From: a virus
IMG/VR virus record: IMGVR_UViG_3300021090_000064
Coordinates: 1-38,667 of that record
Length of the DNA stretch: 38,667 nucleotides
Strand: one strand, 5' to 3'
Made by a program: the position numbers and the translations under genes. Of this stretch, positions 1-35,965 are shown one piece after another (the stretch's first letter is position 1; each line of letters opens with the position of its first letter). The notes below the pieces were generated by a model. The model was given only the letters and a program-made list of their open reading frames with translations. It did no database searches and had not been told where the DNA came from.

Positions 1-34
1 CTCTCTCGGGATCTGCCATATAGACATCCTTCTA

Positions 35-43
35 TGTTACAAT
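35..43 (+). promoter_or_regulatory. Extended -10 promoter-like site
   Basis: TGTTACAAT resembles an extended -10 box (TGnTAnAAT) and matches TGCTACAAT at 16962 and the TGCTACACT boxes at 16401 and 16096. No convincing -35 is seen. It points into a GC-rich hairpin region (about 56-115) opposite the end of the giant gene. It may be chance. Confidence 0.3.
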
Positions 44-57
44 CGTGGCACGCGCGG

Positions 58-106
58 TGGGGAGTCCCCCGGCTGCCCGGGACAAGGCTCGCCGACGGAC
101 TCCCCG
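58..106. other. Long GC-rich hairpin in the junction spacer
   Basis: GGGGAGTCC is matched by GGACTCCCC about 30 bases later, with a smaller CCCGG-rich element inside. It lies between the giant gene's stop (151) and the next minus-strand gene (start 38557 across the junction). There is no T-tract on either strand, so it is not a classical terminator. It could be an mRNA processing or folding element. Confidence 0.45.
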
Positions 107-150
107 GTGTTCTTCATCCGCTGATCCGTTGCCCATCCGTTGACACCCGC

Positions 151-9100: not shown

Positions 9101-9342
9101 CCCTGGTACTCGCCCGCGCCGGGTGCCGCAAGGGCAGGCGTCCCTGCCTGCCCGGGTGTCCCTGCCTGCCCGGGTGTCCCTGCCGGCCCCCCCGTGGGAG
9201 TCGGGGGGGCAAATCTCTGGATGGGGCGCTGTGGCTCCGGGAGTGGGGCGGTCGGGGCGTGCGGGGTGACGACGCGCGGCTGTCCCCGCCGTCGCCGCAT
9301 CTGCGCTTCGCGTGCGCGTGGATCAAAGCGTCGGATGGTCAC
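151..9342 (-). CDS. Giant polyvalent/ejection protein with metallopeptidase and lytic transglycosylase
   Basis: 3063 residues, about a quarter of the genome. The N-terminus is Pro/Gly-rich and has two glycine-zipper hydrophobic stretches (about 183-216 and 310-345), as in membrane-penetrating virion proteins. A zincin-type HEVGH lies at 1590-1594, followed by an EAEESFARDFERYL helix, like the metallopeptidase domain of phage polyvalent proteins. A tryptophan-rich region with three repeats of the type HPELxxYWDW lies at about 2680-2790. The last ~110 residues are a soluble-lytic-transglycosylase domain with catalytic Glu2968 in LIKAESNGNA and the GLFQLH motif. It follows the portal genes, so a role inside the capsid, ejected to open the host wall and act in the cell, is inferred. 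The start is GTG with AGAAGG very close; M15 is an alternative. Several palindromic elements and two minisatellites are inserted in frame. Confidence 0.85.
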   Translation of the reverse strand: MTIRRFDPRAREAQMRRRRGQPRVVTPHAPTAPLPEPQRPIQRFAPPTPTGGPAGTPGQAGTPGQAGTPALAAPGAGEYQGTGADVGLDYHVKDGKLFVRSDSWPVTRGISRSEYDALVSTYQPPGTGEMGRHAGLPQQLAQQLPPEQQGQEFGLPPGGPETLRGKFASFMGSPLGTVAKSAPMAFLGGVLGFSVGGPVGAAVGAAAGGVGGAALNYYQEQELAKLSAAYGFAEAQRRFDEENVVGQALHWMDFLRGGLEQVVGTAEQIGGAALAPEKYGTPEEVARNLGAAWKAARVTYESGTEESRAAAVAGAGIGLVGGVPGMTIGAALGHVGGAALSALQGNERVWVDYDLPEANGGLLALVEARRAIASGKDEYAVFTEMQARYGVGGQVTELVSGLIADPLNFTSAIESSGIGVVGRMLGDAELVRAVELTRQHPGLIGATRAYKNLLLMKPVREGFQAGQDLSRLQRLVIGQELLGLAATGEYKPPKGIAGLWHLTPESLAREHVFRANDTLGTLLSRLPNDETLADNVERMVSGFKHADPDNVPADFPEAGRMGASIEGRVVQRSINEGAMRDKVAAWRATAPERQLLDDLAAATGDPSTGSGRKAVLARIGNGEADALLKELRAASTSSAGPEGAALAAKLDDGSLNAEVLSGMHKSFTEDLIPYTPEMLKASVMEGLIEGAGAWAAKTFGVKGQDFFGRLAQAVKGVESVALLGLNVSYPIRNLWNGELTAIVDGVWGLRGIAGIEAEWERLGVRPARAVAGIGMADIGEEFTVGAVGERAVAAGLAPIQKAEQTTGILAEIRNFTKDLGEKLPPTHYAQELEKWQGARAYYEGWRQMWSQAWRKDVSIPRLPPTIESALAGVDPRLPDYLYAAAEAGYTPAEIAAQVLTQAPAPLVQQFYGEVARTVGIGRADMARLMALDGVGDTLNAELAKLGPKAQPRDVRRVFEGVRKQAAKSIAEQIRQETANITERAASVPGTEGALGVLNITDEIETDLYNTFLRHTQNLDRRWAEVFREGKPKGAVMRAMFAEADEVWTNYQAREVAAYQGLADGMSSANLGLADEFIPTVKAKQAAIRSWNEARTRRLREFFDRDWSGAAPGERTAAWNETTAALDRAYFELAEDLNKRQTAMDEYLVAAYRARSGDQVANGVQAWREAVRKFNRDDMARVRAFRQEVRTLPDYQQAKAWTDFHDERLRRRWEATQALINARRSIGQAPAPDVQRVAQPIPVAEAAPIAPEGAAQAAPPVAVAAAPAAAAPTPERGLTRNFRAGTNDASMTFESAMQRDLYDLAAQDRKFIRDEVVDVPALKSSRESLARRLGVSESETIQLAYRVHDDVRGQMKGVQHLETRTLVDNITPTPPDVQRVVEHVTAALDEAEKAAALQPDLIGEPGVTLSRAGFRAQLVDSFPEVTASQIDTTLALTDARARTWARDTGRPWQEWYETHLRGVRKGAPEEGALFQAAEIKRLTKAEADLYLLWREQGVRESAMEARLTGLRAETLPEGLTPRERTLATAYRSAVSEAQRLHPEALNLYQTGLPQGAAPTLAGRHKGAVEFLADGRAILRALEGPDVSTLVHEVGHIFRRDLPEAELRVAESHYGVEGGEWRVEAEESFARDFERYLGTAQAPTPALVRVFERLRDWLREIYASVANFIHPVDEPMAGVFDRLLGGEGAPTAELRAVRLPVEAARTPGMEITLNHNQALAGGRVWADKVGVEGAEVLADFPEAVRVRLPGGEEYPLTRDLITHAEVPEGRVEAPTAPAAEAAPLPPEEQARLNTAREAATKLLADAKKKQRKANKLWRQLFKEQRADPEGALLGEMNRLRQEAASETQQALATAETTGPVVSTDVDPSVRAARAGLRQAQAALEGSGLADDIGVAVEELAALKSEGMYTVSEYLTQSPPLTPFQKSLLADLGSARSADEVAGWVRNYAEGVERGASGWEQAKRGGVSVEREATTLFQDDALPGFDSTIRAQAGGGDEFPLPNGKRGVLLGRADDGAWLVREIESGVVHRVPGAGTQARPYLPPGTLDDLTGGGPRPHAQAREEAWYDRMLPALDELQKRTEESVRRGVVRGVGTEAHAQLPPEVQAGVRDWLNDMGGQMSEAKRFAMKWGEFKRDAALLNYSRRYGFDNALGLAMPYEFWVTHSMLQWAARAIERPALFANYYRMQKFLSTSVSQPGFPSRLEGRVKIPLPFLPEWMGGGMWVDPMQFGLPLNQFFQPWEQLQMATTKTESRALRKLEEMLQEGQISQAEHDEALAEANANGPLAYLLNTLKSPTLKRAVQLAMADDANLKFDGVDLASLVVSPHLPLQWAYQALRGTPERIQPLPGTRQLKALTAALGIGPAGGVNVEAGLRRKLNLPIFDQWEDYRVDRELSNMAAEGLITPKQASAAMIERAGPVFETAQRRAAQVGGFGTITGMIFGTTAGVYPEGEERQRLLGELLTAAHAAQDDGDVDALSRFFEQHPEYEARLALYDKPEERVRNFLIDQVWTGYTALPEIYRRQIVAAFGADFSDAFLDKETRSYTSIPVETLATWARTLGQYVPRQLEGDPQRLEFAPPEVAQEAEQFYAERERFEMDWVRALQEAYYAIPEHARATDTPLPPELDAFYTSRDQLFPTIGDLQDAYFNLPEVAQTAARDQLFPGIFATQDGYFALPAGKERRAYLGAHPELSSYWDWNKSYKAEHPEEQLRKQFRAQFPELERYWSWRDAWKRGHPAEARYLDEDVPSARSAFVQQHPELAEYWDWRRGWLAAHPVSAPWITEQTPPSLTPSPSPEGRGESATEPPKILGSPEMQLLVTAYLFADEPLPSAARLVLQQEFEQQGQRPGRTDGRGNFDQWLVEIMAYGGSLGGEALSYGGGQPWTYPGRPPATGQARSPAPTRSPAPTRSPAPTRSPAPTAAAPTGNAAPNPYATTAQGGTEGVMAWAEMAAQYGGEAGVPAEFILALIKAESNGNAQAVGDAGHSVGLFQLHDRGVGAGYTVEQRYDPALQFSLMMPRIAAAYNAGVAKGLSGRQLAMYVGQQAERPAASAVPRYGVAYDQLMGAR
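596..679. repeat. 18-bp in-frame minisatellite (4 units) in giant gene
   Basis: GGGGCAGGACTCCGTGTT repeated four times, giving PAPTRS-type peptide repeats before the transglycosylase domain. The unit looks like the left half of a GGGGC/GCCC element whose right half (GTGCCTGCCC) follows at the end of the array. Confidence 0.85.
3229..3255. repeat. GGGGC/GCCC palindromic element (arm GGGC)
   Basis: In frame in the giant gene. Confidence 0.75.
3761..3786. repeat. GTAGAGACG/CGTCTC palindromic element (arm GACCGG)
   Basis: In frame in the giant gene; gives ETTGPVVSTD. Confidence 0.85.
4669..4694. repeat. GGGGC/GCCC palindromic element (arm TGCC)
   Basis: In frame in the giant gene near the metallopeptidase domain. 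Confidence 0.75.
7511..7527. repeat. CCTGAGCCTGTCGAAGG element in giant gene
   Basis: In frame; gives DPSTGSG. Other copies in this gene are at 3708 (LRQAQ) and about 7426 (STSSAG). Confidence 0.8.
8928..8953. repeat. GGGGC/GCCC palindromic element (arm AGAC)
   Basis: In frame in the N-terminal linker of the giant protein. Confidence 0.8.
9133..9184. repeat. 18-bp in-frame minisatellite in giant gene N-terminus
   Basis: TGTCCCTGCCTGCCCGGG in about 2.5 units, giving GTPGQA repeats; derived from a GCAGGCGTCCCTGCCTGC-type palindrome. Confidence 0.8.
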
Positions 9343-9369
9343 TGCCTTCTGCCTACCGCCTTCAGCCTT

Positions 9370-10044
9370 CTAGAACCTCCAACTGATCAGCCCGTAATAC
9401 CACGGCGGGACTTCGCGCGGCGGGTACTCACCCCCTCCGCCGCCCCCGCCATAGCCGCCATACCCGCCCCCGCCCGTGTCCTCGTAGCCCGCGCCGTAGT
9501 CGGTGGGGTAGTAGGCCCCCGCCTCCGGCGCGGCGTAGGCCGCTTCCTCCTCGGGGGGCAGCACCTCCACGTACGGCCGGGCGGTCACCGCCTGGACGCC
9601 CTTGTTCATCACGCCCTGGCGCACGGGGGGGCGAGCCTGCCCGTAAGGCGGGATGTGGCCCGTGTAGGGAGAGTAGCGCGGGACGTACGCGGGCAAGCCC
9701 GCCGCTGCCTGGGTGAACGCCCCCGGCAGGTTCTGCCGCAGCGCCGGGTACATCGGGAGCGTGCTCATGGTGAGCGGCTGCGTCGCCATCCCGAAGGCGC
9801 CCGGCGCGCCCTGGCGCTGCGCGGCGTACAGCGGTAGCCCGCCCTGGTAGGTGCTGCCGAACTGCGTCACCGGCCGGGCAGCCGGAGTCGGGGGGGCCGC
9901 CGCCGCCGGGGGCCCGCCTCGGCGTGAGGCCACGTAGGCCGGGAGCTTGGGCTTCGCCGCTTCAGCCGCGGCCGCCGCGCGCGGCACGCTCTGCGCCGGG
10001 CGTCCCTTCGGCTTGGGCTTGTAGGGTTTGACTCCTGCGGGCAT
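9370..10044 (-). CDS. Pro/Gly/Tyr-rich virion-associated protein, unknown function
   Basis: 224 residues. It has a basic, lysine/proline-rich start, an Ala/Pro linker, repeated short motifs of the type LPxYxxxR/LPMYPALRQ, an acidic patch and a glycine-tyrosine run (about 195-212). It ends with the aromatic tail PPWYYGLISWRF. There is no enzyme motif. It sits between a small helical gene and the giant gene, all closely spaced on the minus strand, so I infer a structural or ejected protein. Low complexity limits homology calls. Confidence 0.7.
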   Translation of the reverse strand: MPAGVKPYKPKPKGRPAQSVPRAAAAAEAAKPKLPAYVASRRGGPPAAAAPPTPAARPVTQFGSTYQGGLPLYAAQRQGAPGAFGMATQPLTMSTLPMYPALRQNLPGAFTQAAAGLPAYVPRYSPYTGHIPPYGQARPPVRQGVMNKGVQAVTARPYVEVLPPEEEAAYAAPEAGAYYPTDYGAGYEDTGGGGYGGYGGGGGGGEYPPREVPPWYYGLISWRF

Positions 10045-10045
10045 G

Positions 10046-10372
10046 TTAGCCTCCTTCGGTCGGGGTAGACTCGGTCGGGGTAGACTCGGTCGGGGTAGAC
10101 TCGGTCGGGGCAGACCGTTGGGGCAGACCTGTGTGTCTGCCCTCCCTCTGCCCGCCCATCTGTTGCTGCATCCGGCGCGCGTGCTCAGCCAGCGGCGCGT
10201 GGGTGTCCGCGGACATCTGTCCGCGCTCTTCAGGCGGCATCGCCAGGAACGCCTGCACCTGCGCCGCCAGCCTCAGCGGCCCGTTGAACGCCGCCTGGAA
10301 CTCCGCCTCCCACTCGGCCGCCTTGAGCTGCGCCTCGAGCATCGCCCCCAGCACGTCGGTGATCTTGATCAT
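10046..10372 (-). CDS. Small helical phage protein with a TEST-type repeat tail
   Basis: 108 residues from the ATG at 10372, which overlaps the upstream stop as ATGA. Residues 1-75 are predicted helical (MIKITDVLGAMLEAQLKAAE...). The C-terminus is four PTEST-like repeats encoded by a 15-bp tandem array at 10056-10115, preceded by an inserted palindromic element. Function unknown. Its place between portal and giant protein suggests a head-associated role. Confidence 0.7.
   Translation of the reverse strand: MIKITDVLGAMLEAQLKAAEWEAEFQAAFNGPLRLAAQVQAFLAMPPEERGQMSADTHAPLAEHARRMQQQMGGQREGRHTGLPQRSAPTESTPTESTPTESTPTEGG
10056..10115. repeat. 15-bp in-frame minisatellite (4 units)
   Basis: Four tandem copies of TCGGTCGGGGTAGAC (the last with one change) directly abut a full palindromic element at 10117. 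The unit resembles the left half of that element, and its length is a multiple of three, so the reading frame is kept. Confidence 0.85.
10117..10142. repeat. GGGGC/GCCC palindromic element (arm AGAC)
   Basis: GGGGCAGACC..GTGTCTGCCC; in frame within the gene ending at 10046. Confidence 0.8.
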
Positions 10373-10620
10373 GCTTGCCCGGCGTGGTCGGGCACGTACT
10401 CCGGCCAGTGCCACGTGCCGGGCTTTTCACCCGCCTCGTCGTGTTGACAACCTTGATTGAAAAATAACCCCGTTGGATTGAGCACGCACAGACTGACACG
10501 CGTCTCGTCGTGCACGTGCGTGATGATCGCGGCCCGGTGCTCACCCGCCGGGTATTCGCCCCCCGGTGTGCCATAGGCGACGTAGTGTACGACTCTTCCA
10601 ACGCTCGGTGTTGTGGTCAT
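10369..10620 (-). CDS. Conserved small phage protein (HYVAYGTPGG type)
   Basis: 83 residues. The motifs VGRVVHYVAYGTPGGEY, HRAAIITHV and VSLCVLNPTGLFFNQ resemble a small beta-rich protein family I recall from many tailed phages, of unknown function. An AGGA Shine-Dalgarno precedes the ATG at 10620. It lies 18 nt after the portal stop, and its own stop overlaps the next start (ATGA). Probably part of the portal transcript. Confidence 0.75.
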   Translation of the reverse strand: MTTTPSVGRVVHYVAYGTPGGEYPAGEHRAAIITHVHDETRVSLCVLNPTGLFFNQGCQHDEAGEKPGTWHWPEYVPDHAGQA

Positions 10621-10638
10621 CGTGTCCTCGCTTTCTGA

Positions 10639-12486
10639 TTATCGCGCCTGCCACCTCGCCGGCAGCGGCGCCTGCAGCGGCTGGCCTTCCGTCACCTCCC
10701 CGCCAGGAGGATAGGGAGATACCGCCTGACCTCCGCCGCCAGCGTTGCGGCCGGCCGCCCCGGCCGGCGCAATCGCTGACTCTCCCTGCGGTGGACCACT
10801 CGGCCCGGGTTGAGTCGGGGGGGCAGGGGGCTGACTCGGGGGGGCGGCTTGCGCCATCGCCGCCTGGGCTTGCATCTGCATCGCCTGCGCCGCCTGCTGC
10901 ACCTTCAACTGATCCTGCGCGCTGAGCTGGTTGAACATCCGCTGGATCTCGAAGCGCACCCGCTTCTCCATCCAGATTTCCTTGTCCATCGCCTCGCTCT
11001 GGCCCATGCTCAAAATGTTCTCGCGCACCCAGCGCATGCTCGCCAGGTCCGTGTCCACCAGGCGCTCGCCCGTGGTGGCCAGCTGCAGCTTGTCGGTGGG
11101 CAGGTCCGGCTCCAGGTTCACCCTCAGCGCCAGCCGCTCGGGGATATCGGCCGGCGTCAGCTCGAGGTAGCTCCCCTTGCCGTAGTCGTAGAACCCTGAG
11201 CCTGCCGAAGGGCCGCCCTCGGGCGGGTCCTGCTTGTACCAGGCCAGCGCGGCGATGAGCAGGTTCGCGATCGCCTCGCCCGCCAACTGCTTGGTCGCCG
11301 TCAGCGGCAGCCGCCCGGACTGCACCAGCAGGCTGATCGCGCTGAACGCCATCACCTGCTGCGGCGGCGCGCCCAGCGCCATCTTCGGGATCGTGCTCTC
11401 TTCGTTCAGCCGCTGCGCCAGCTCGAGGCCCTGGTACTGCGACGGGTCCACCACCTTCTCCAGGAGCCCCGACGGCTTCTCGCCCTTGTGCACCTTCAGG
11501 ATCCCGCCCGGGATCGAGCGGTCCACCGTCGTGGGCGCGTCGGTGTCGTCCGTCTCCTGCACCAGCAAGGGGTTGCTGCCCAATGCGTGGATCAGGGAGT
11601 AGAGCACGGTCAGGCCGAGGTTCTCCCTTTTCCACAAGCCCGACTTGTGCATGGCGTAGAGCAGGGGGAAGCGCTGCAGCTCGGGCCGCGTGAACAGCAT
11701 CGTCCCGTCCACGATCTGGTCCACCACGGGCAGGAAGTCCAGCTCGTGCTCGGCGCACAGGATCGGGTCGTCGCCGTCGTCCAGCCACACCGCCCGGTAG
11801 CGCCAGTCGTACCAGTCGCTCAGCGTCACCGCGTCGTGCGCCTTGAGGGTGCCGGCGCGCTTGCCCACCGCCGCCTCGGCGCGCGCCCCCCACGTGGCCA
11901 GCACCTCGCCCCAGGTCGTGGCCGTGCGGCGCAGCATCCCCCTCAGCCCGTACAGGTCGAAGTCGCCGTAGCAGGTGGCCGGGTTGTAGACCTGGAAGAG
12001 ATACGGCGTGCGGCTGGCGACGTGCTGCATGCGCTTGATGAGCGCCGGGTCCTTCGTCCCCTCGGCGTCCTTCAGCAGGTCGGCCGTCCTCGTCACGCTC
12101 GCGCAGATCTCGGCGTACATGAGCGCGCTGAACACGATCTCGTAGTGCACCGGCCGCTGGGCGATGCGCCCGCTCCCCGCCCACATCGCCTTGCAGGCCT
12201 GCTCGATCTTGCCGCTCGCTTGCTTCGCCTGCGCCTGGGCCTCGTCGAAGGGCACGTTGATCTGCGGTTCGGTCGAGACCATCAGCCGCACCGCCCCGAT
12301 CAGGGCGTTGTACGCGCTCGGCGACATGGTCTCTTTGATCCAGTCGCCGCCCGGCGCCTCGCTCCACTCCATGTGCACCATGCGCCGCAGCTCCTCGTAG
12401 AGCGTGTCGCGCGCGCTGTACGTGCCCTTCAGCGCCGTGCACGTCTGGCGGATGTCGTCGAAGTCGCCCTTATCGTAGTCAGGCAT
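10639..12486 (-). CDS. Portal protein
   Basis: 615 residues from the ATG at 12486 (AAGGA nine bases upstream, one base after the upstream stop). A longer frame upstream overlaps another real gene and lacks a good start. Length, position after the large terminase, the central ..NPATCYGDFDLYGLRGMLRR.. region and a Gln/Ala/Pro-rich C-terminal tail fit the portal (head-to-tail connector ring) of short-tailed phages. A palindromic element is inserted in frame as GGPSAGSG (about residue 425-430). The tail (Ala/Gln then Pro/Gly) is low complexity. Confidence 0.8.
   Translation of the reverse strand: MPDYDKGDFDDIRQTCTALKGTYSARDTLYEELRRMVHMEWSEAPGGDWIKETMSPSAYNALIGAVRLMVSTEPQINVPFDEAQAQAKQASGKIEQACKAMWAGSGRIAQRPVHYEIVFSALMYAEICASVTRTADLLKDAEGTKDPALIKRMQHVASRTPYLFQVYNPATCYGDFDLYGLRGMLRRTATTWGEVLATWGARAEAAVGKRAGTLKAHDAVTLSDWYDWRYRAVWLDDGDDPILCAEHELDFLPVVDQIVDGTMLFTRPELQRFPLLYAMHKSGLWKRENLGLTVLYSLIHALGSNPLLVQETDDTDAPTTVDRSIPGGILKVHKGEKPSGLLEKVVDPSQYQGLELAQRLNEESTIPKMALGAPPQQVMAFSAISLLVQSGRLPLTATKQLAGEAIANLLIAALAWYKQDPPEGGPSAGSGFYDYGKGSYLELTPADIPERLALRVNLEPDLPTDKLQLATTGERLVDTDLASMRWVRENILSMGQSEAMDKEIWMEKRVRFEIQRMFNQLSAQDQLKVQQAAQAMQMQAQAAMAQAAPPSQPPAPPTQPGPSGPPQGESAIAPAGAAGRNAGGGGQAVSPYPPGGEVTEGQPLQAPLPARWQAR
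11194..11212. repeat. CCTGAGCCTGnCGAAGG element
   Basis: In-frame copy inside the portal gene; read on the minus strand it gives GPSAGSG. Confidence 0.8.
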
Positions 12487-12487
12487 C

Positions 12488-12706
12488 TTACAAATCCTTC
12501 TCGCCTTCGTGCGAGGCGCTCGGCGGCCTGTGTTGTTTGGCAGCGTTCCACCCCTGAACAAAGGCGGCCCACATTGAGCCATCCCGGTGCTTGATTTCCC
12601 CCGCCCAAGTCCATGAGTTCAGGTATTCCGGGCTGGACTTGTAAGCCTGCCAGGCTTTCATCAATGGGTCGTCTTCTGGCACGGGCGACATGTTGTTGTC
12701 AGGCAT
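12488..12706 (-). CDS. Conserved small phage protein (DPLMKAWQAYK type)
   Basis: 72 residues. The pattern DPLMKAWQAYKSSPEYLNS...GSMWAAFVQGWNAA resembles a compact helical phage protein family seen near portal and terminase genes; function unknown. GAGGAG precedes the ATG at 12706. The start overlaps the upstream gene's stop by eight bases, and the stop is one base before the portal start, so it is translationally coupled on both sides. Confidence 0.8.
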   Translation of the reverse strand: MPDNNMSPVPEDDPLMKAWQAYKSSPEYLNSWTWAGEIKHRDGSMWAAFVQGWNAAKQHRPPSASHEGEKDL

Positions 12707-12893
12707 GGCGTCGTCTCCTCATTTGGCCGGTGGCCCGGTTATCGCGCCAGCCGCGCACGGTCAGCACGCCGCGCTTCACGTCGAAGCGGAAGCGGTGCAC
12801 CAGCCCGCAATCACAACAGGCCATCTTCAAGTCCTGCCGTCTCCAGCGCAGGCGCAGGCGCTGGCCCGACTCGATGTTCGGATAGCGGCTCAC
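12699..12893 (-). CDS. Small CCDCGLVH protein (possible metal binding)
   Basis: 64 residues starting at GTG 12893, which overlaps the terminase stop as GTGA. The core MACCDCGLVHRFRF and WRDNRATGQMRRRR match a small basic phage protein family. CCxC plus His suggests a single metal site, but this is inference. Its coding region lies between two well supported genes and overlaps both by a few bases. Confidence 0.75.
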   Translation of the reverse strand: MSRYPNIESGQRLRLRWRRQDLKMACCDCGLVHRFRFDVKRGVLTVRGWRDNRATGQMRRRRHA

Positions 12894-14290
12894 AGGTCCC
12901 GGCTCCCCAGGCCGGTGCTCTTCTGCGCGCGCTTCAGGATCGAGTCCACCACCTGCACCACCACCGGGCGCGGGGTGGGGGGCCGCACATTCGTCAGCCC
13001 GTAGCGCAGCATGTCGTAGTCGTGGTCGTCGCCGGCCGTGTCCACGTCCTCCACGTGCACCGGGTCGCGCACCAGCGCCGGCAGCGTGCGCACCAGGTCC
13101 GTGCAGGTGGTGAAGATTTGCAGCCCGGGCAGTCCGTCGGGCAGGTCGGCCAGCAACGTCTTCACCTTGCGCACGCCCGTCAGCCGGTCGTTGTCCGCCT
13201 CCACCAACGCCACGCCCTCCGCCCGGTACTCGTCCGCCGTGCTGAAGGTCTTGTCCTCGTGACTCTTCTTCGTCCACATGCTCGGGTCGGCATACGTGAT
13301 GCGCACCTTCTCACTCGGCGGGGAGTGGACCACAATCAAGCGCGCCTGCTGCCGGTCGGTCAGCCCCGTCTCGTGCACCTGGCGGTAGACGTACACCCGC
13401 CCGCGGTCGGGGTCGCGCGCAAACCACCCGCACACGAACGGCGCCACGCTCCCCCAGTCCACCGCCCGCCAGCGCGGCCACGCGAGCGGCAGCTCGATCG
13501 GGTCAATGAAGTGCCGCCCGCGGCGCAGGTCGAACACCTGCCCGACAAACACGTTCCAGTCGCCCCACCGCCAGGCGCGCGCCAGGTCCGGCGGGAGCGA
13601 GTCGAGCATCTCCCAGTAAGCCTGGTCGAGGTGCGGATTGTCGTCCGGCAGCGCGCGGACGAACACGAACTGATCGGCCAGCGTCTGCATCTCCGGCGGC
13701 AGCGCCTGCTCTTTGTCCACCCCCCAGTAGTCGCGCACCCACAGGTGCCCGATCCCGTCCGGGTTGCTGCCCGCCACGAACTTACAGTCCGCGTCCGGCA
13801 GCCCCGGCCAGCGCAGCGAGCCGCGCAGCACGTTGAAGACCTCGACCGGGTTCATCGTCAACTCGTCCACGCCGATGTCCGCAAACTCCGCGCTCTTGTA
13901 CTTCGAGAGCTTGTCCAGGTTGCGCAGCGCCAGCACCCCGCCGCCGTACTCCGGGCGCAGGTGGAAGCCCAGCCCGTGCGCCTGGCTCTCCTTCAGCTCG
14001 CCCAGCCAGGCCGGGAACTCACGCTCGATCTTGCCGATCTGCCGGTCCTTGAGCACCGGGTAGTCCTCGCAGAACAGCGCGCTGACCACGCCCAGCACCC
14101 CCGAAGCCGCGCGCTGCAGGATGCGCTTCAACAGATACCAGCGCAGCCAGTGCGACTTCATGCAGCCGCGGCTCCCGCCGTAGAGCGTGAACTTGTGCGC
14201 CGCCGCCGCGCGCGCGGCCGCCACCTGCTTCGGCTCGAACCGGCACAGGTCGGCGAAGTTGACGCGCTCGACGTCAGGCGTCGCCATCAT
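12890..14290 (-). CDS. terL: Terminase large subunit
   Basis: 466 residues. This is the packaging ATPase and headful/concatemer nuclease. Walker A is LYGGSRGCMKS (about 36-46); Walker B is FADIGVDE (about 135-142). The RNase-H-like nuclease carries acidic residues in AVDWGS (about 270), ITYADPS and the DDHDYDMLRYGL end. Length is normal for the family. It begins inside the end of the small terminase gene (17-base overlap), so coupling is likely. Confidence 0.93.
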   Translation of the reverse strand: MMATPDVERVNFADLCRFEPKQVAAARAAAAHKFTLYGGSRGCMKSHWLRWYLLKRILQRAASGVLGVVSALFCEDYPVLKDRQIGKIEREFPAWLGELKESQAHGLGFHLRPEYGGGVLALRNLDKLSKYKSAEFADIGVDELTMNPVEVFNVLRGSLRWPGLPDADCKFVAGSNPDGIGHLWVRDYWGVDKEQALPPEMQTLADQFVFVRALPDDNPHLDQAYWEMLDSLPPDLARAWRWGDWNVFVGQVFDLRRGRHFIDPIELPLAWPRWRAVDWGSVAPFVCGWFARDPDRGRVYVYRQVHETGLTDRQQARLIVVHSPPSEKVRITYADPSMWTKKSHEDKTFSTADEYRAEGVALVEADNDRLTGVRKVKTLLADLPDGLPGLQIFTTCTDLVRTLPALVRDPVHVEDVDTAGDDHDYDMLRYGLTNVRPPTPRPVVVQVVDSILKRAQKSTGLGSRDL

Positions 14291-14621
14291 TCGGCACCAC
14301 CAGGAGCTTCACACTCCCCGACTGCTCGACTCTCTGCATCGGCTTGCCCAGCACCTGATCCAGCACGCGCTGCGCACACGCCGCCCGGAACTCCGACTGC
14401 GCCATCGTCTCAGCCTTCCCGCGTGGCGCGTGGCGCATGTACTTGCACAACAGCGCGAAGGCGTATCCCGCCTCGGTGGTCCGCCGGTCGGCCAGCTTTC
14501 GCTTGAGCAGCGTCGCCGCCTTCGGCTTGCGGCCCGCGCCCGCACGCTTCCCGCCCCGCGCGCGTGGGTTCCCGTGTTTCAAGGCCGCGCCCTGAGCCTG
14601 TCGAAGGGCCTTTGATTTCAT
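14274..14621 (-). CDS. terS: Terminase small subunit (probable)
   Basis: 115 residues from ATG 14621; a TTG start at 14642 is possible. After an N-terminal palindromic insert (ALRQAQGAAL) comes GGKRAGAGRKPKA, a common start of small terminase subunits, then a helical domain ending before the overlap with terL. It would bind the packaging site and recruit the large subunit. The call rests on position and N-terminal style. No strong ribosome binding site is visible. Confidence 0.65.
   Translation of the reverse strand: MKSKALRQAQGAALKHGNPRARGGKRAGAGRKPKAATLLKRKLADRRTTEAGYAFALLCKYMRHAPRGKAETMAQSEFRAACAQRVLDQVLGKPMQRVEQSGSVKLLVVPNDGDA
14590..14608. repeat. CCTGAGCCTGTCGAAGG element in terS
   Basis: A perfect copy placed at the extreme N-terminal coding part of the small terminase; translated as LRQAQG. 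Confidence 0.8.
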
Positions 14622-14634
14622 CTGTGAAAAACGG

Positions 14635-14652
14635 CATATCAAATTTGATATG
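14635..14652. promoter_or_regulatory. 18-bp perfect palindrome upstream of terS
   Basis: CATATCAAATTTGATATG is a perfect palindrome in an otherwise GC-rich genome, 14 bases upstream of the terS ATG. It could be an operator or nucleoid-protein site, or part of a tandem structure with the hairpin at 14652-14689. Confidence 0.5.
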
Positions 14653-14689
14653 GGCCAGCCCTGGTGTCGTCACAACGCAGGGCTGGCCC
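14652..14689. terminator. 12-bp-stem hairpin between small gene and terS
   Basis: GGGCCAGCCCTG and CAGGGCTGGCCC are perfectly complementary with a 14-base loop. There is no T-run after it on the minus strand, only an AT-rich palindrome. It may be a weak terminator, pause or processing site inside the late transcript. Confidence 0.45.
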
Positions 14690-14709
14690 TTCAAATGGGT
14701 TCATCGAGT

Positions 14710-14913
14710 CTAGCGCTTGCGCTTCTTCGTAAACGACTTCAGCATCTCGGCGAAGCGCGCGCGCCGCCCCATCGTCCCCGGCTTCTTCGCCGCCGCGCGC
14801 AGCCGCCCGGCCGGGATCTTCCCGCCCTTCTTCACGCCCAGGCTGCGCCGCAGCGCGCCGGGGTGCTTGATCGCCTTCTTGATGTTGAGGCGTTTACGTT
14901 TAGGCTTGGCCAT
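14710..14913 (-). CDS. Highly basic small phage protein (KHPGALRRSLGVKKG type)
   Basis: 67 residues, about 40% Lys/Arg. The motif IKKAIKHPGALRRSLGVKKGGKIPAGRLRAAAKKPGTMGRRARFAEML resembles a short basic phage protein I have seen near lysis and packaging genes; function unknown. It overlaps the upstream gene by 14 bases. The charge suggests nucleic acid binding, which is inference. Confidence 0.8.
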   Translation of the reverse strand: MAKPKRKRLNIKKAIKHPGALRRSLGVKKGGKIPAGRLRAAAKKPGTMGRRARFAEMLKSFTKKRKR

Positions 14914-15187
14914 GGGGGGTTTCCTTTTGCTTGAGCAGCTCTTGCACGGGGGTGATGTCCTGGCTGATGGTCACCCGGATCCGGCGGGTGTGGGCTTTCT
15001 CCATCACGATCCCGATCTCGCCATAGCCGCCCGCGGCCAGCACGCCGTCCAGCGCCGTCACCAGCGCCTGCAGCTGTACCAGGGTCATGTGGCGCAGCAG
15101 CCGGTGGAGGATGACGTCGGTCTCCGCCTCCACCCCACGCTTCACGCTCCATCGCGCAGCATCCCTTTGGGACGCTTCACGCTCCAC
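14900..15187 (-). CDS. Small protein of unknown function in lysis-packaging operon
   Basis: 95 residues from GTG 15187, which overlaps the previous gene; GTG 15142 or Met34 are alternatives. The part from MTLVQLQALVTALDGVLAAGGYGEIGIVMEK is a plausible folded domain. The first ~20 residues are encoded by a repeat-like stretch (ACGCTTCACGCTCCA twice, around an imperfect hairpin), so they may be an insertion. It sits between the coiled-coil protein and the basic protein. Confidence 0.65.
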   Translation of the reverse strand: MEREASQRDAARWSVKRGVEAETDVILHRLLRHMTLVQLQALVTALDGVLAAGGYGEIGIVMEKAHTRRIRVTISQDITPVQELLKQKETPHGQA

Positions 15188-15512
15188 GCTTGTCTCTCCC
15201 GACCGCGTCGCCGCCGATGGTGATGTCGCCCAGCGCCTGGAGGATGATGCCGCCCTGATGATAGTCGTCGAAGGTCTTGTACACCGACTTCTTCAGGTCG
15301 TCCACGCGCCGCTGCAAATCCGGGGTCTGGCTCTCCCTCAGGATGTCGAGCGCTTCGAGCAACTGCAAGCCCAGCGCGGCGCTCAGCGACTCGAGCTGCC
15401 GGATGCTCGCCTCCAGCTCCTTCCGGCGCTTGTGCACGATGTAGTGCAGCACCCCCAGCAGCAGCACCACCACGAGGCCGAGCAGCGTGTCGAACAGGGG
15501 CAGGGTGATCAC
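15177..15512 (-). CDS. TM plus coiled-coil protein, possible lysis accessory
   Basis: 111 residues from GTG 15512, which overlaps the holin stop as GTGA. One N-terminal TM segment (LPLFDTLLGLVVVLLLGVLHYIV), then a charged coiled coil (about 28-85). This layout is that of an inner-membrane spanin-like or holin-partner protein. The C-terminus GDITIGGDAVGRDKRGA contains a GGDxVGRDK motif that I associate with linkers of multidomain proteins in Chloroflexota and cyanobacteria. No Rz1-like lipoprotein partner is seen nearby, so the lysis role is tentative. Confidence 0.65.
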   Translation of the reverse strand: MITLPLFDTLLGLVVVLLLGVLHYIVHKRRKELEASIRQLESLSAALGLQLLEALDILRESQTPDLQRRVDDLKKSVYKTFDDYHQGGIILQALGDITIGGDAVGRDKRGA

Positions 15513-15682
15513 TGCCGGGCGCGCAGGCCGTCTTCGAGCGCCGTGCCGAGGATGTAGCTCACGACCACGGCCACCGCCGCGGTGAGCGTGGGCAGGTCCA
15601 CGCCGGCGCGGTCGCCGAGGAAGACGACGACCAGGCCGACGACCAGCGCCCAGAACTTGCGCGACTTGAGAATGTTGGACAT
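15509..15682 (-). CDS. Holin (small two-TM membrane protein)
   Basis: 57 residues. MSNILKSRKFWALVVGLVVV, then a second hydrophobic segment (LTAAVAVVVSYILG) and the tail ALEDGLRARQ. The start LLKSRKFW-type, two TM helices and a short charged end are typical of a class of small phage holins that time host lysis. AGGAG lies eight bases before the ATG. It is the first gene after the late promoter/terminator leader, and no separate endolysin is visible in the window. Confidence 0.75.
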   Translation of the reverse strand: MSNILKSRKFWALVVGLVVVFLGDRAGVDLPTLTAAVAVVVSYILGTALEDGLRARQ

Positions 15683-15703
15683 GGGTTAGACTCCTTTCGG
15701 GAT

Positions 15704-15752
15704 AAAGAAAAGGGGCGCGCCAGCTGAGCTTGTCGAAGCTCTGGCACGCCCC
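15704..15752 (-). terminator. Strong leader terminator between late promoter 1 and holin
   Basis: On the minus strand a 12-bp stem (GGGGCGTGCCAG/CTGGCGCGCCCC, one G-U) encloses an AGCTT/AAGCT inner hairpin and is followed by TTTTCTTT. It lies between the promoter at 15781-15809 and the holin start at 15682. The loop is made of a CTGAGCTTGTCGAAG element. Transcripts would end here unless antiterminated. Confidence 0.8.
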
Positions 15753-15767
15753 GGTCTCGTCGACTCT
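15749..15767 (-). promoter_or_regulatory. Conserved late-leader motif, copy 1
   Basis: AGAGTCGACGAGACCGGGG directly precedes and enters the terminator stem. The same 19 bases (18 identical) occur at 35832-35850 in the same position relative to the other late terminator. It may be an antitermination site (nut/qut/put-like), by inference. Confidence 0.55.
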
Positions 15768-15780
15768 GTGGGCTGGTTAG

Positions 15781-15809
15781 AGTGTACGCCGCTTGGCGCG
15801 GCGAGTCAA
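15781..15809 (-). promoter_or_regulatory. Late promoter 1 (sigma70-like)
   Basis: TTGACT - 17 bases - TACACT on the minus strand. The spacer is itself an inverted repeat, CGCCGC-GCCAA-GCGGCG, a likely operator. It drives the short leader, terminator and lysis/packaging operon. Confidence 0.75.
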
Positions 15810-15876
15810 TCCGGGGGAACGAAAAGCCCCGGCGCGGTGGCCGGGGCGGGTGGGGCGGTATGCGGTTGTGGGGGCT

Positions 15877-16095: not shown

Positions 16096-16104
16096 AGTGT
16101 AGCA
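16096..16104 (-). promoter_or_regulatory. Extended -10 promoter of small gene A
   Basis: TGCTACACT on the minus strand, 31 bases before the ATG at 16065. No good -35, as expected for a TGn-type promoter. Identical to the box at 16401-16409. Confidence 0.55.
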
Positions 16105-16136
16105 CGATCCAGCCCGCAAAATGGCAACAGGGGGCG

Positions 16137-16400: not shown

Positions 16401-16409
16401 AGTGTAGCA
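16401..16409 (-). promoter_or_regulatory. Extended -10 promoter of small gene B
   Basis: TGCTACACT on the minus strand, 34 bases before ATG 16367; same box and spacing class as at 16096. Confidence 0.55.
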
Positions 16410-16435
16410 CGCCAGTTGGCAAAATAACGTGACTC

Positions 16436-16825
16436 TTAGAACGGCTCCTCCTCCGCCTCGGGCTGCGGCTGCTGCATCACGGGCGGCGGCTCGCTCACCC
16501 CGTTCGTCGCCTTGCGGAAGCGCACCACCACGTGCTCCCCGCCGAAGGCCGTCACCGTCTCCGCGTACAGGCTGATCTTCTGCCCCGCCCACGCGCCCGC
16601 CTCGTCCTCGCCGAGCGCCGCCGCGATCTGCTCCGCCATCGTGCGGTTCAGGATCACGCCCTTGTGCGCGCGCTCGAAGTAGATCACCCACTTCTGCACG
16701 CGCTTCTTGGCGCGCGCGTCGTACATCGGCTCACCGACCACGTCGCGGATCGACAGCGTCCAGGTCTTGCCGTTCAGGTCTGCGCCGCTGATGTAGCGGC
16801 TGGGGAACATCTCGTTCACGTTCAT
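16436..16825 (-). CDS. Conserved phage protein (MNVNEMFPSRYI type)
   Basis: 129 residues. The N-terminus MNVNEMFPSRYISGADLNGKTWTLSIRDV, the middle KWVIYFERAHKGVILNRTMAEQIAAALGED and GQKISLYAETV..FGG are typical of a beta-rich phage protein often found near recombination genes; its function is not established. AAGGAG precedes ATG 16825. The C-terminus is an acidic Pro/Gln/Glu tail (EAEEEPF) that resembles tails of single-strand DNA-binding proteins, so a DNA-metabolism role is possible. Confidence 0.75.
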   Translation of the reverse strand: MNVNEMFPSRYISGADLNGKTWTLSIRDVVGEPMYDARAKKRVQKWVIYFERAHKGVILNRTMAEQIAAALGEDEAGAWAGQKISLYAETVTAFGGEHVVVRFRKATNGVSEPPPVMQQPQPEAEEEPF

Positions 16826-16918: not shown

Positions 16919-16958
16919 ACAGGCGACCCTGAGCCCGTCGAAGGGGCAGGTCGCCTGT
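16919..16958 (-). terminator. Terminator downstream of the lipoprotein gene
   Basis: Ten-base arms (ACAGGCGACC/GGTCGCCTGT) enclose a CCTGAGCCCGTCGAAGG element. On the minus strand the stem is followed by TTTTGCTTG. It would end transcripts from the lipoprotein gene. Confidence 0.6.
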
Positions 16959-16961
16959 CTA

Positions 16962-16970
16962 TGCTACAAT
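16962..16970 (+). promoter_or_regulatory. Extended -10 promoter of a putative small RNA
   Basis: TGCTACAAT on the plus strand, with no ORF downstream before a terminator about 100 bases later. Confidence 0.45.
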
Positions 16971-16976
16971 CTCGGC

Positions 16977-17076
16977 AACCCTGCCACCGCTCACAACGGT
17001 GACTTGGGTGAGGCCCTGGGCGGTGCTTCAACACTGCTCAAGGCCGGGGCGGGCGCCAAATCGGTGCCCGCTTTTT
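16977..17076 (+). ncRNA. Candidate structured small RNA
   Basis: About 100 nt between an extended -10 box (16962) and a terminator hairpin with TTTTT (17049-17076). Internal complementarity CACCGC/GCGGTG (about 16986 and 17018) and AGGCC/GGCC pairs suggest a folded RNA. No convincing ORF lies here. Not matched to any family I know. It could be a phage regulatory RNA or a decoy; transcription is unproven. Confidence 0.4.
17049..17076 (+). terminator. Rho-independent terminator
   Basis: GCGGGCGCC - AAATC - GGTGCCCGC followed by TTTTT on the plus strand. Confidence 0.7.
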
Positions 17077-17128
17077 CGTAACTACGCAATTAGTATACAC
17101 CCGCTCGACTGGTTGTCAAGTCCTATTT

Positions 17129-18381: not shown

Positions 18382-19299
18382 CTATTCGCCCAGCAGTTTC
18401 GTCACCGGGAAGTACGGGTCGAAGTCCCCCGGGCCTAACGACTCGGTGTAGGGCCGCATCTCGGCCTGGCTCTTCCAGCCGCCCATGATGCGCACCAGCT
18501 CCGAGGGCGCGCCCAGCAGGTGCGAGAACTTCGCGAACGAGCGCCGCAGGTCGTGGGGGCTGAACCCCTGGGCCAGCCCAGCGCGCTTCCCGATCTTCCG
18601 GAAGATCGCGCGCAGCCCCCAGGGCGTGAGCGGCGTCCCCGGCTTCAGTCCCCCCAGCCCCACGAAGACCGCCGTCACCTCGGGCCGCGCGTGCGCCGGG
18701 CGCAGCGCCAGCCACTGCCCCAGGAAGTGCGCCGTCGCCGGGCTGAAGCCGCGCTCGATCTCGTCGCCGCCCTTGTCGATCACCACGTAGCGGCGCTTGG
18801 CCAGGTCCACCTTGCGCAGCTCCAGCCGGCACAGCGCGCTCGCGCGGATGGACGAGTCGAGGATCAGCAGCAGGATCGCCAGGTCGCGTGTCCCCCGGTG
18901 CGTGCTCGTGTCGCACGCCGACAGCACCGCCAGCGCCCCGTCCCAGTCCAGCACCCGCTGCTTGCGCTTGTGCACCTTCGGCCAGGGCAGGGCGTGCGCC
19001 GGCGTGATCGGCCCTGACCCTGAGCCTGTCGAAGGGCCGAGCGCGTGCCGGAAGAACGAGCGGAAAGCCGCCACCGCCCGCCGCAGCGCGCTCTCCCCCA
19101 CGCCGCCCTCCTTGCGCTGCGCCAGGTAGGCCAGCAGGCGCTCGCTCGTGAAGTCCCCCGGCTGAGCCTGCCGAAGCCCCAACAGCCCCGGGCTGGCCCG
19201 CGCCAGCGCGCCCACGTCCCAGACGTAGGCCTCCACCGTCGTCGGACTCTTCCCCGACACCACCAGCCAGTCCCGCCACGCTGCCATCGCCGACTGCAT
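18382..19299 (-). CDS. int: Tyrosine recombinase / phage integrase
   Basis: 305 residues from ATG 19299, which has GGAGG five bases upstream; longer frames start inside repeat elements. A SAM-like N-terminal domain (AAWRDWLVVSGKSPTTVEAYVWDV) is followed by the catalytic domain: Arg in DSSIRASALCRL, Lys in VVIDKGGDE, HDLRRSF (H-x-x-R), a Trp in MGGWKSQAEM and the nucleophile Tyr in MRPYTES. It catalyses integration at attP, whose probable site lies beyond its 3' end. Two palindromic elements are inserted in frame (LGLRQAQPG and LGPSTGSGSGP) between or at the edge of domains. Confidence 0.92.
   Translation of the reverse strand: MQSAMAAWRDWLVVSGKSPTTVEAYVWDVGALARASPGLLGLRQAQPGDFTSERLLAYLAQRKEGGVGESALRRAVAAFRSFFRHALGPSTGSGSGPITPAHALPWPKVHKRKQRVLDWDGALAVLSACDTSTHRGTRDLAILLLILDSSIRASALCRLELRKVDLAKRRYVVIDKGGDEIERGFSPATAHFLGQWLALRPAHARPEVTAVFVGLGGLKPGTPLTPWGLRAIFRKIGKRAGLAQGFSPHDLRRSFAKFSHLLGAPSELVRIMGGWKSQAEMRPYTESLGPGDFDPYFPVTKLLGE
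19020..19037. repeat. CCTGAGCCTGTCGAAGG element in int
   Basis: In-frame copy giving GPSTGSG at the junction between the N-terminal and catalytic domains. Confidence 0.8.
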
Positions 19300-20856: not shown

Positions 20857-20961
20857 ATGCTTCGCTTCTTCGCCAAATGGATCTGCCGCCGCTGCTGGCT
20901 GGCGGTCCTGGGCGTCGGCTCGCGCGGCCACTGCGGCCACTGCGCCTGCTGCCCGCAATGA
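20857..20961 (+). CDS. 34-residue Cys-rich mini-protein
   Basis: MLRFFAKWICRRCWLAVLGV...GHCGHCACC. Six cysteines in two clusters (CRRC and CGHCACC region) suggest a mini zinc ribbon. AAGGAG lies eight bases before ATG 20857, and the stop overlaps the replication gene start (ATGA), so it may also serve for translational coupling. Confidence 0.6.
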   Translation: MLRFFAKWICRRCWLAVLGVGSRGHCGHCACCPQ

Positions 20962-21773
20962 CGGCCTACACCCACGTCCCCAACAGCTACCAGAAGCCCA
21001 ACGTCTTCGCGGACCAGATCATGCGCCTGCTCTCCCCCACCCAGAACATGGTGCTCGACGCCGCCTGCCGCAAGATCATGGGCTGGGAGACCCGGCGCAT
21101 CACGCGCCGCGACCGCATCAGCCTATCCCAGTTCCAGGAACTGACCGGGCTGAGCATCAACGCGATCCGGGCCGCCCTCGCCCACCTGTCCACCGGCAAC
21201 CTCCTGACCCCGATCGGAGAACCCGTGGGGCGCATCGCCCAGGAGTACGAGCTCAACCTGGGCCAGCGCGGCGACTATCGCTGGGAGTTTCTGCGCGACC
21301 ACGCCCCCGCCCGATGGAACCCGGAGCAGGCGCGCGCCGCCAAGCAGACCCAAGATGTGGCGGTACCAAGCCTATTACCCACTAACACGCATGGAGAGGA
21401 GTACCCTATCTTAAAAGGCCCCCTTAGCCTATCACCTGCTAACGAGCTAGCCTATTACCCACTAACAACACAAAACTCATTAAACTCAAAAAGAGAATTA
21501 ACTATTGATTCTCTTTGGTTGCAGGCCCAAGCCCTGGCCCGCAACCTGCTGCCCCGCGCCACCTTCGACGCCCACCTGGCCGCCGCCCGGCTGGAGGCCG
21601 GCGAGGCCCCCGGCGCCTTCCGGCTGGTGCTCGCCTACTGCGAAGGCCCCAACGCCCGCGCCTGGCTGAAGAGCCACCTCGAACCCACCCTGCTCTACGC
21701 CTTATCCAAGTTCACGGATCCCGTCGTCGCCCTCGACTACGGCTTTCCCCAAGGAGACTCCCATGACCCCTGA
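20958..21773 (+). CDS. Replication initiator (RepO-like winged helix + DnaA-N-like domain)
   Basis: 271 residues from ATG 20958. Residues ~5-75 (NSYQKPNVFADQIMRLLSPTQNMVLDAACRKIMGWE...LSQFQELTGLSINAIRAALAHL) match the winged-helix N-terminal domain of phage O-type replication proteins, which bind origin iterons. The C-terminal ~80 residues (LWLQAQALARNLLPRATFDAHLAAARL...NARAWLKSHLEPTLLYAL) resemble the N-terminal domain of DnaA, which contacts the replicative helicase. The linker is Ser/Thr/Asn-rich and AT-rich in DNA, and holds the origin. No helicase or loader gene is visible, so it probably recruits the host DnaB. Confidence 0.8.
   Translation: MTAYTHVPNSYQKPNVFADQIMRLLSPTQNMVLDAACRKIMGWETRRITRRDRISLSQFQELTGLSINAIRAALAHLSTGNLLTPIGEPVGRIAQEYELNLGQRGDYRWEFLRDHAPARWNPEQARAAKQTQDVAVPSLLPTNTHGEEYPILKGPLSLSPANELAYYPLTTQNSLNSKRELTIDSLWLQAQALARNLLPRATFDAHLAAARLEAGEAPGAFRLVLAYCEGPNARAWLKSHLEPTLLYALSKFTDPVVALDYGFPQGDSHDP
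21369..21514 (+). other. ori: Origin of replication inside the initiator gene
   Basis: Two identical 19-bp iterons AGCCTATTACCCACTAACA (21369-21387, 21449-21467) and a third diverged copy (21426-21444, 15 of 19 identical) are followed by an AT-rich stretch (about 21465-21514) with the inverted repeat AGAGAAT/ATTCTCT at 21492-21514. Iterons plus an adjacent AT-rich zone inside an O-type gene is the lambda ori layout. The base composition contrasts sharply with the GC-rich flanks. Confidence 0.75.
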
Positions 21774-21984
21774 ACCCCTCATCCCGCGCCTGGTCGTCAT
21801 CACCCTGGCCTGCGGCCACACCGTCACCCTCGGCATCCCGCCCGAGGTGGACCCGTCCCCCGGCTACGTGCTCCACTGCTACAAGTGCGAGCTGGACATG
21901 CCGGTCTTGAGCGTCACCCTGCACGCCGAGGCGGACGCCTCCACGCGGGCCGCGCACACCCCCATCCTGTACGGCGGCGAATGA
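21763..21984 (+). CDS. Small zinc-binding protein (CxH..CYKC)
   Basis: 73 residues. AAGGAG precedes ATG 21763, inside the end of the initiator gene (11-base overlap). LACGHTVTLGI and YVLHCYKCELDMPV suggest a CxH/CxxC zinc site in a small beta fold. One of the run of tiny metal-binding proteins in this operon; function unknown. Confidence 0.7.
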   Translation: MTPEPLIPRLVVITLACGHTVTLGIPPEVDPSPGYVLHCYKCELDMPVLSVTLHAEADASTRAAHTPILYGGE

Positions 21985-23163: not shown

Positions 23164-23368
23164 AGAGCTCCAGGCCCTCACCGAGGAGCGCCTGCGCCGC
23201 TGGACGGCCAGGCTCGTCGCCGAGCACGCCACGCCCATGGTGCTGGTCGGCATCGGCCACGACCACGCCAGCGGAAAGATTGTGATCTGCGCCCTCGAGG
23301 ACGGCCCCTTCTCGGAGGCCCGCTACCTGCGCGGCCTGCTGCGCTACGCCAGTGAACACTTGCCCTGA
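23147..23368 (+). CDS. Small protein of unknown function
   Basis: 73 residues from ATG 23147 (AAGGAG upstream), overlapping the previous gene by 17 bases. MTAEELQALTEERLRRWTARLVAEHATPMVLVGIGHDHASGKIVICALEDG...LRGLLRYASEHLP: a helix followed by a small alpha/beta domain. No family recognised. Confidence 0.7.
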   Translation: MPMTAEELQALTEERLRRWTARLVAEHATPMVLVGIGHDHASGKIVICALEDGPFSEARYLRGLLRYASEHLP

Positions 23369-23389
23369 CTCGTGTCCGCGGACACGTCC

Positions 23390-23414
23390 ACATCAGGCCG
23401 AAGGCCTGCTGTGG
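23390..23414. repeat. ACATCAGGCCGAAGGCCTGCTGTGG-type element
   Basis: AGGCC-GAA-GGCCT hairpin within a conserved sequence of about 25 bases; a second copy is at 25058-25083 inside the ParB gene. Confidence 0.7.
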
Positions 23415-23441
23415 GCACGAGTCCACTCACGGAGGAACCCC

Positions 23442-34013: not shown

Positions 34014-34976
34014 TTACACGAACTTCACGCCGGCGACGCGGACGATCGAGAAGTTCTGACTGAAGTTCTTCAGCCCGATCGCCCAGTCCATCCGGCGCAG
34101 ATACCCGGGCGTGGCCTCTTTCTCCCCGCCGTTCAGCGGGTCGTAAGGCTCCGGCGAAGTGCCGCCCAGTTGGATCCCATTCAGCCCGGTCTCGTCGCCC
34201 ATCTTCACCCCGTAGATGGACGTGCCCACCGAGTCCGTGCCCTCGGTCGTCGGGATGATCTCGGTGGCGAGATCCGCCTTCAGGCCCACGTCGGCGATCT
34301 TGCCGCCCGCGAAGACCTCCCAGGTGCGCTCGTAGTTGTCCTGGGTCGTATCCAGCAGCGCGAGCCGGCGCAGCGTCTGCCCGAAGCCGATCTTGGCCGC
34401 CTCGTTCACGACCCACATATCCACTTCCCCCCCGATGTAGGTCTTGGCCTTGTGCAGCGCGTCGATGAACTTGTTTTCATTGGCCGCGCTGGCGAGCACG
34501 TCGAGCGTCACCCCGCCCGACTCCAGGTTGATCGTAGAGCGCGCGGGCATGTTGCTGATGCGTTTCTTCAGGCCCTCGAACCCGTCCGGGTCCACCCCGT
34601 GGTCGCCGTTGATGAAGTCGTTGTTGAACCCGCGCGTGACCGACTCCGTCAGCATCTGGGTCTGGAGGGTGAGCTGGTCGATGAACAGCGCCTCGACCTT
34701 GGTGAAGATGCGGTCAATCCCCACGTCGCCGCCGTAGATCGAGAGCGTCTCTTCCACCTGCTCGGTTTGGCCGGTCGCCTCGGTGTAACCGGCGTTGAGC
34801 TTGCGCTTCCCCGTCGCGGGGAGGGACTGCCACCGTAAGCCGACGACGCGCAAGCCGGACACGTCGGCGAACGGCACGAGCTGAAGCAGCTTCGACTGGC
34901 GCAGCAGGTCCTGCATGACCATCGTCGCGTACGCCGTCTTGGCCGTCTTCAGCAGTTCGTTCAGTGTGACTGCCAT
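34014..34976 (-). CDS. Major capsid protein
   Basis: 320 residues. AVTLNELLKTAKTAYATMVMQDLLRQSKLLQLVPFADVSGLRVVGLRWQSL... with GGDVGIDRIFTKVEALFIDQLTLQTQMLTESVTRGFNNDFINGD and the C-terminal YLRRMDWAIGLKNFSQNFSIVRVAGVKFV fit HK97-fold capsid proteins that have no N-terminal prohead-protease delta domain. Scaffold upstream and decoration-like gene downstream support it. AGGAG precedes ATG 34976. Confidence 0.88.
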   Translation of the reverse strand: MAVTLNELLKTAKTAYATMVMQDLLRQSKLLQLVPFADVSGLRVVGLRWQSLPATGKRKLNAGYTEATGQTEQVEETLSIYGGDVGIDRIFTKVEALFIDQLTLQTQMLTESVTRGFNNDFINGDHGVDPDGFEGLKKRISNMPARSTINLESGGVTLDVLASAANENKFIDALHKAKTYIGGEVDMWVVNEAAKIGFGQTLRRLALLDTTQDNYERTWEVFAGGKIADVGLKADLATEIIPTTEGTDSVGTSIYGVKMGDETGLNGIQLGGTSPEPYDPLNGGEKEATPGYLRRMDWAIGLKNFSQNFSIVRVAGVKFV

Positions 34977-35936: not shown

Positions 35937-35965
35937 ATCATAGGCCCCTGCGCGCCGGGAGTCAA
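35937..35965 (-). promoter_or_regulatory. Late promoter 2 (sigma70-like)
   Basis: TTGACT - 17 bases - TATGAT on the minus strand, upstream of scaffold and capsid genes. Same -35 hexamer and spacer length as late promoter 1. Confidence 0.75.

Follow-up and report, generated by a model that had tools for sequence, protein, structure and literature searches.

The lysis and packaging genes of the virus studied here appear to be headed by a promoter-terminator switch that would be opened by an antiterminator loaded at the promoter or in the leader, working like lambda pR'-tR' or Pseudomonas alpB-tB. We hold this reading with somewhat better than even confidence. It is based on a viral contig of 38,667 nt (positions 1 to 38,667 of IMG/VR record IMGVR_UViG_3300021090_000064), hereafter called the window. 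According to the proposed mechanism, a host-sigma-type promoter would fire, but a strong intrinsic terminator would end its transcript after ~70 nt. Early in the lytic cycle the phage would make a factor that loads on RNA polymerase at the late promoter or leader, and polymerase carrying this factor would pass the terminator and transcribe the holin gene, the terminase gene and those downstream. The elements of the leader are:

15826..15847, minus strand: intrinsic terminator of the upstream genes, GCCCCGGCCACCGCGCCGGGGC-TTTTCG, present in all relatives
15781..15809, minus strand: predicted late promoter TTGACT-17-TACACT (-35 TTGACT at 15809-15804, -10 TACACT at 15786-15781)
15753..15767, minus strand: conserved transcribed leader core AGAGTCGACGAGACC, from the leader alignment
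15764-15754, minus strand: 3-bp mini-hairpin in the leader core, with one compensatory change in L004
15712..15752, minus strand: terminator hairpin GGGGCGTGCCAG...CTGGCGCGCCCC, 12-bp stem with one G-U
15724..15738, minus strand: copy of the dispersed repeat CTTCGACARGCTCAG in the terminator loop, not in the relatives' loops
15704..15711, minus strand: U-tract TTTTCTTT, directly 3' of the hairpin

The initial annotation had placed the promoter, the 12-bp stem, the U-tract and the holin start at 15682 correctly. Between the -10 hexamer and the start of the stem lie 28 nt. Missing from it was the separate terminator at 15847-15826, which closes the upstream genes just before the late promoter. 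Downstream of the U-tract follow a ribosome-binding site (RBS) and the holin ATG (15682-15680). The terminator hairpin has a fold of -36.2 kcal/mol (z = -3.8) and its intrinsic-terminator score of the d'Aubenton-Carafa type is clearly positive (+30). When a pair was defined as a promoter of at least 9/12, then a stem of at least 8 bp plus a T-run within 110 nt, one pair was found in the window and none in 60 Markov-simulated copies; the promoter-terminator pair in the window is real, beyond chance.

For comparison, relatives of the terminase large subunit (TerL) were taken from IMG/VR, namely L003, L004 (here the same as L009), L005 and L006, with TerL 87-94% identical, and the near-identical L007. 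All four distinct relatives with a readable leader keep the same order of upstream terminator, TTGAC/TACA-T promoter, AGAGnCGnnGAGnCC leader, terminator, RBS and holin. Five distinct leaders, window included, were aligned, with the loop of L006 trimmed. Invariant in this alignment are 5/6 positions of the -35 and likewise of the -10 hexamer, 5/17 of the spacer, 11/16 of the transcribed core, 7/9 and 8/9 of the stem arms and none of the 4 comparable loop columns; TTGAC and TACA-T are unchanged across the five sequences. Base pairing is kept in 100% of 60 pair cells, compared with 37-67% in slid controls. One double compensatory change was found in the terminator stem (GC to AU) and one in the mini-hairpin (UA to GC; GUC-GACGA-GAC versus GGC-GUUGA-GCC), which as single evolutionary events would alone prove little. 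Terminator scores range from +12 to +40 across the window and the four relatives. The loop contents differ, with the copy of the dispersed repeat in the window and a palindromic insert of ~70 nt in L006. Since stem and tail are kept while the loop varies freely, we read this as selection on a working terminator, and selection seems to act on the hexamers and the stem rather than on the loop. The initially transcribed region reads TTAGAGT in L003, L005 and L006, CAGAGT in the window and CAGAGG in L004, with no clear -10-like pause element. A degenerate leader pattern searched in viral contigs returned the same clade only, plus chance matches. The dispersed repeat itself occurs in 14 copies, all on the minus strand, with 0 expected; they lie inside genes and terminator loops (e.g. 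15724-15738, 16929-16943 and 19020-19034).

A second contig lineage, as well as prophages from one Chloroflexota family, also have predicted pairs ahead of lysis/packaging genes, similar in layout and unrelated in sequence. In L032/L034 an extended -10 promoter is followed by a 34-nt leader, a terminator and a holin gene, then by TerS, TerL and portal genes. This holin is 62-64% identical, and TerL is not detected by the window TerL in tblastn. The prophages G115/L100 and G294/L101, both from one Chloroflexota family, have TTGACA-16-TATAMT with a hairpin and T-run within 6-8 nt. In G294 the pair is followed by holin and endolysin, in G115 by one gene without identity, endolysin and a weak holin match, and in both by TerL and portal. 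Promoter and hairpin of G123 are the same as in these two; G118 was left out of the comparison (contig edge). Termination is less certain at these prophage hairpins, whose loops are larger and whose terminator scores are lower (-29 to +8). In L013 (TerL 27%), a perfect promoter and a leader of 15 nt lead to a terminator, which is followed by a major head protein gene. No such pair was found in G102/L099 (TerL 34%), and L031 has a promoter before the holin and no terminator. In the same Chloroflexota family, a tandem direct repeat GTGGGATATGTGGGATA stands just upstream of phage-type promoters in L102, L103, L104, L107 and L109 and is a possible activator or antiterminator site. Just past the terminator of L102 and L107 lies TCTGTGCAAACCCC, a partial complement of the terminator 5' arm GGGGTCTGCACAGA, so that read-through RNA could refold.

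As 13 of 16 holin relatives are in Chloroflexota, the virus probably infects bacteria of this phylum. A TerL relative is encoded in 4 of 400 Chloroflexota genomes, and a TerL search of genome contigs found no host. The initial annotation had proposed a pR'-tR'-like layout heading the lysis/packaging operon. Conservation and the independent examples bear out this layout; we infer an active promoter, a terminator that works in the host, an antiterminator and its loading site. Since the layout is kept in relatives and present in more distant phages, late-gene expression in the virus probably depends on a factor, just as that of lambda depends on Q.

The leader itself narrows the choice of mechanism. 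With only 28 nt ahead of the stem, there is not enough room for a classical RNA antiterminator, which makes a pR'-tR'-like switch the best reading. These 28 nt hold no start codon and no complement of the stem 5' arm, so leader-peptide attenuation and a riboswitch-type antiterminator do not fit; a search of Rfam gave no match. Modified polymerase, a leaky terminator and upstream read-through remain as options. The leader of lambda pR' is longer than the ~70-nt leader of the window.

Judged by its layout, the late switch would be functionally most like pR'-tR'; we do not claim membership in the Q system. With pR'-tR' and Q of lambda, 21 and 82 it has in common that a single promoter heads the lysis/packaging genes and that a brief untranslated leader leads up to an intrinsic terminator ahead of the first gene, the holin (PMC6606751). 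It differs from them in having no Q homologue, no clear pause element, a poorly conserved spacer (the Q site in those phages) and an apparently chloroflexotal host. With AlpA-alpB-tB of Pseudomonas aeruginosa it shares a promoter, then an intrinsic terminator, before lysis genes, whereas the reported AlpA-element motif GGGACGN5GGTA was not seen by eye in the promoter spacer of the window or its relatives (PMC7969949). AlpA, which controls the lysis operon, has no sequence homology to lambda Q (PMC7969949). Q21 and AlpA thus illustrate that Q-like antiterminators need not resemble lambda Q in sequence, and the binding site of both is the promoter spacer (PMC6606751, PMC7969949). For this reason, a missing Q homologue says little either way.

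That no Q homologue is recognisable, as the initial annotation stated, holds for PF06530, PF03589 and the PHROG scans of most early ORFs. Neither Pfam family matched the window or any of five related records, whereas the E. coli controls were detected, and PHROG and Pfam scans of most early ORFs yielded no antiterminator. Among the conserved early genes of the window are those at 21763-21984, 20877-21773, 23352-25169 and 16436-16825 and an HTH gene near 17.65 kb. In G115, G294 and G123, PF06530 gave matches that all fell short of the cut-off and lay elsewhere than at the prophage promoter; we take them as probably sigma-factor-like. The promoter spacer contains inverted repeats, which we weighed as a possible protein site and rejected: their register varies among relatives, and the spacer sequence changes from C-rich to G-rich. 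Inspection by eye for a boxA like that of lambda nut showed no conservation. Searches of the literature on antitermination in Chloroflexota/Anaerolineae phages returned nothing.

The lack of an antiterminator gene in these searches agrees with a leaky attenuator, i.e. a terminator that is partly efficient in the host and sets low or delayed transcription of the lysis genes without a dedicated antiterminator. The U-tracts of L003, L005 and L006 are also short (TTTTAG), as such leakiness would allow. However, the hairpins are very strong, and a weaker promoter would serve equally, with no need for a terminator. We therefore consider a leaky attenuator rather unlikely, though it is the alternative that survives best.

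Upstream read-through has to be discussed together with a second conserved structure on the same strand:

16919-17119, minus strand: conserved structured RNA element with promoter TTGACA-16-TATACT, three helices and a terminator; precedes the SSB-like gene
16962-16970, plus strand: conserved extended -10 TGCTACAAT of a putative antisense RNA
17049-17076, plus strand: strong terminator of the putative antisense RNA, on the opposite strand of the RNA element
16436..16825, minus strand: conserved early gene with SSB-like acidic tip EEEPF, between the upstream RNA element and the late leader

Relatives of the RNA element, among them L003, L005, L009, G003 and G006, are 70-88% identical. The plus-strand extended -10 and terminator bound an apparent antisense RNA of ~100 nt, whose 5' region covers GGCAGGGTTGCC and can pair with the terminator 5' arm in 3/4 relatives. 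From these motifs the element looks like an antisense-RNA attenuator, resembling those of pT181-type plasmids, and it may regulate the operon leading into the late switch. Directly before the promoter of the structured RNA in G003, near 38.4 kb, lies a tRNA-like sequence. Further downstream in the window, an extended -10 motif GTGCTACACT is repeated before two small genes (16401-16410 and 16096-16105, minus strand), with the same type in G003. The protein encoded at 16825-16436 was also considered as antiterminator; its structure, predicted with low confidence (pLDDT 57), had no significant PDB match, and since its C-terminal tip EEEPF looks SSB-like, we do not put it forward as Q.

Polymerases might start at the promoter of this element (17119-17092), be modified there in a put-like or N-like manner and pass all terminators; the 15.78-kb promoter would then give rise to a short RNA of its own, comparable to the 6S RNA of lambda. 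In the window, G003, L003 and G006 the conserved structured leader RNA with its promoter and terminator does head the adjoining same-strand operon. By analogy with the RNA antitermination of HK022 put (PMC9378689), the leader RNA at 17.1-16.9 kb might in principle include an RNA element that acts on polymerase; it differs in having no Rfam match, and the late leader is too short for a put-like element. Moreover, the 15.78-kb promoter is strictly conserved right before the late genes, and L032, L100 and L101 too have a dedicated promoter-terminator pair. An upstream start is accordingly an unlikely explanation, to be ranked below the leaky attenuator.

The reach of the switch follows from the genes of the late operon and a second promoter:

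15509..15682, minus strand: holin gene, first of the late operon (phrog_4712 and phrog_9987, both lysis)
15177..15512, minus strand: late-operon gene, no function given
14900..15187, minus strand: late-operon gene, no function given
12890..14290, minus strand: TerL (phrog_2, 1.3e-23)
35937..35965, minus strand: second predicted late promoter TTGACT-17-TATGAT, ahead of the capsid block; also conserved in G002 and G003
34014..34976, minus strand: major head protein (phrog_212, 6.4e-40)

Below the leader the order is holin, two further genes and TerL, and in the synteny-checked records the operon runs from holin to TerL and on to the capsid genes. The window ends overlap by 129 bases with 3 mismatches, and both match the same place in G002 and G003. 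Consequently, the late genes continue unbroken through the contig ends to the major head protein and on to ~26.6 kb. Promoter prediction for positions 1-15700 gave none on either strand. The claim that RNA polymerase would stop before every gene was nevertheless too strong, since the capsid block has a predicted promoter in front of it (35965-35937) and polymerase may read through from the same-strand operon upstream (17.1-15.9 kb). Given this second promoter, the 15.78-kb switch most plausibly controls the lysis and packaging genes, and the capsid genes may receive extra input. A strong 5' hairpin without a U-tract follows the second late promoter.

Such a 5' hairpin, together with the position of the late hairpin just upstream of the RBS in all relatives, would fit a structure that is no terminator in vivo and instead shields the 5' end of the mRNA or exposes the ribosome site. 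Protection would not need a tail, yet every relative, and also L032, L100 and L101, has a U-rich tail after the stem, and we regard this function as very unlikely. A chance match to a promoter, with the hairpin serving the upstream genes as a second tandem terminator (the first lies ~75 nt upstream of it), is highly improbable, as both hexamers are almost invariant among relatives while the spacer varies and no other promoter is predicted for 15.7 kb.

Counting against the preferred reading, a late-gene switch with a promoter- or leader-loaded antiterminator, are the poorly conserved spacer, the lack of a clear pause element, the capsid block's own promoter and the fact that the pair is not universal (G102/L099, L031). 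The lower conservation of the spacer relative to the transcribed core hints at a loading site other than the spacer, and the conserved core AGAGnCGnnGAGnCC is the better candidate. A bolder version, which we offer tentatively as a possibility, is that Chloroflexota phages have their own class of late antitermination. An early protein with no sequence relationship to the Q families would load not at the spacer but in the leader, at the conserved transcribed motif AGAGnCGnnGAGnCC, which may act as an RNA mini-hairpin, and separate lineages would have evolved different leaders for the same switch.

To our knowledge, the promoter-loaded factors known to cause processive antitermination come from a handful of proteobacterial systems, and phages of Chloroflexota have hardly been studied. 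A conserved, recurrent promoter-terminator switch before lysis/packaging genes would extend the logic of antitermination to phages apparently of Chloroflexota. The leader of ~100 bp and a short list of conserved early genes provide defined DNA for finding a new antiterminator.
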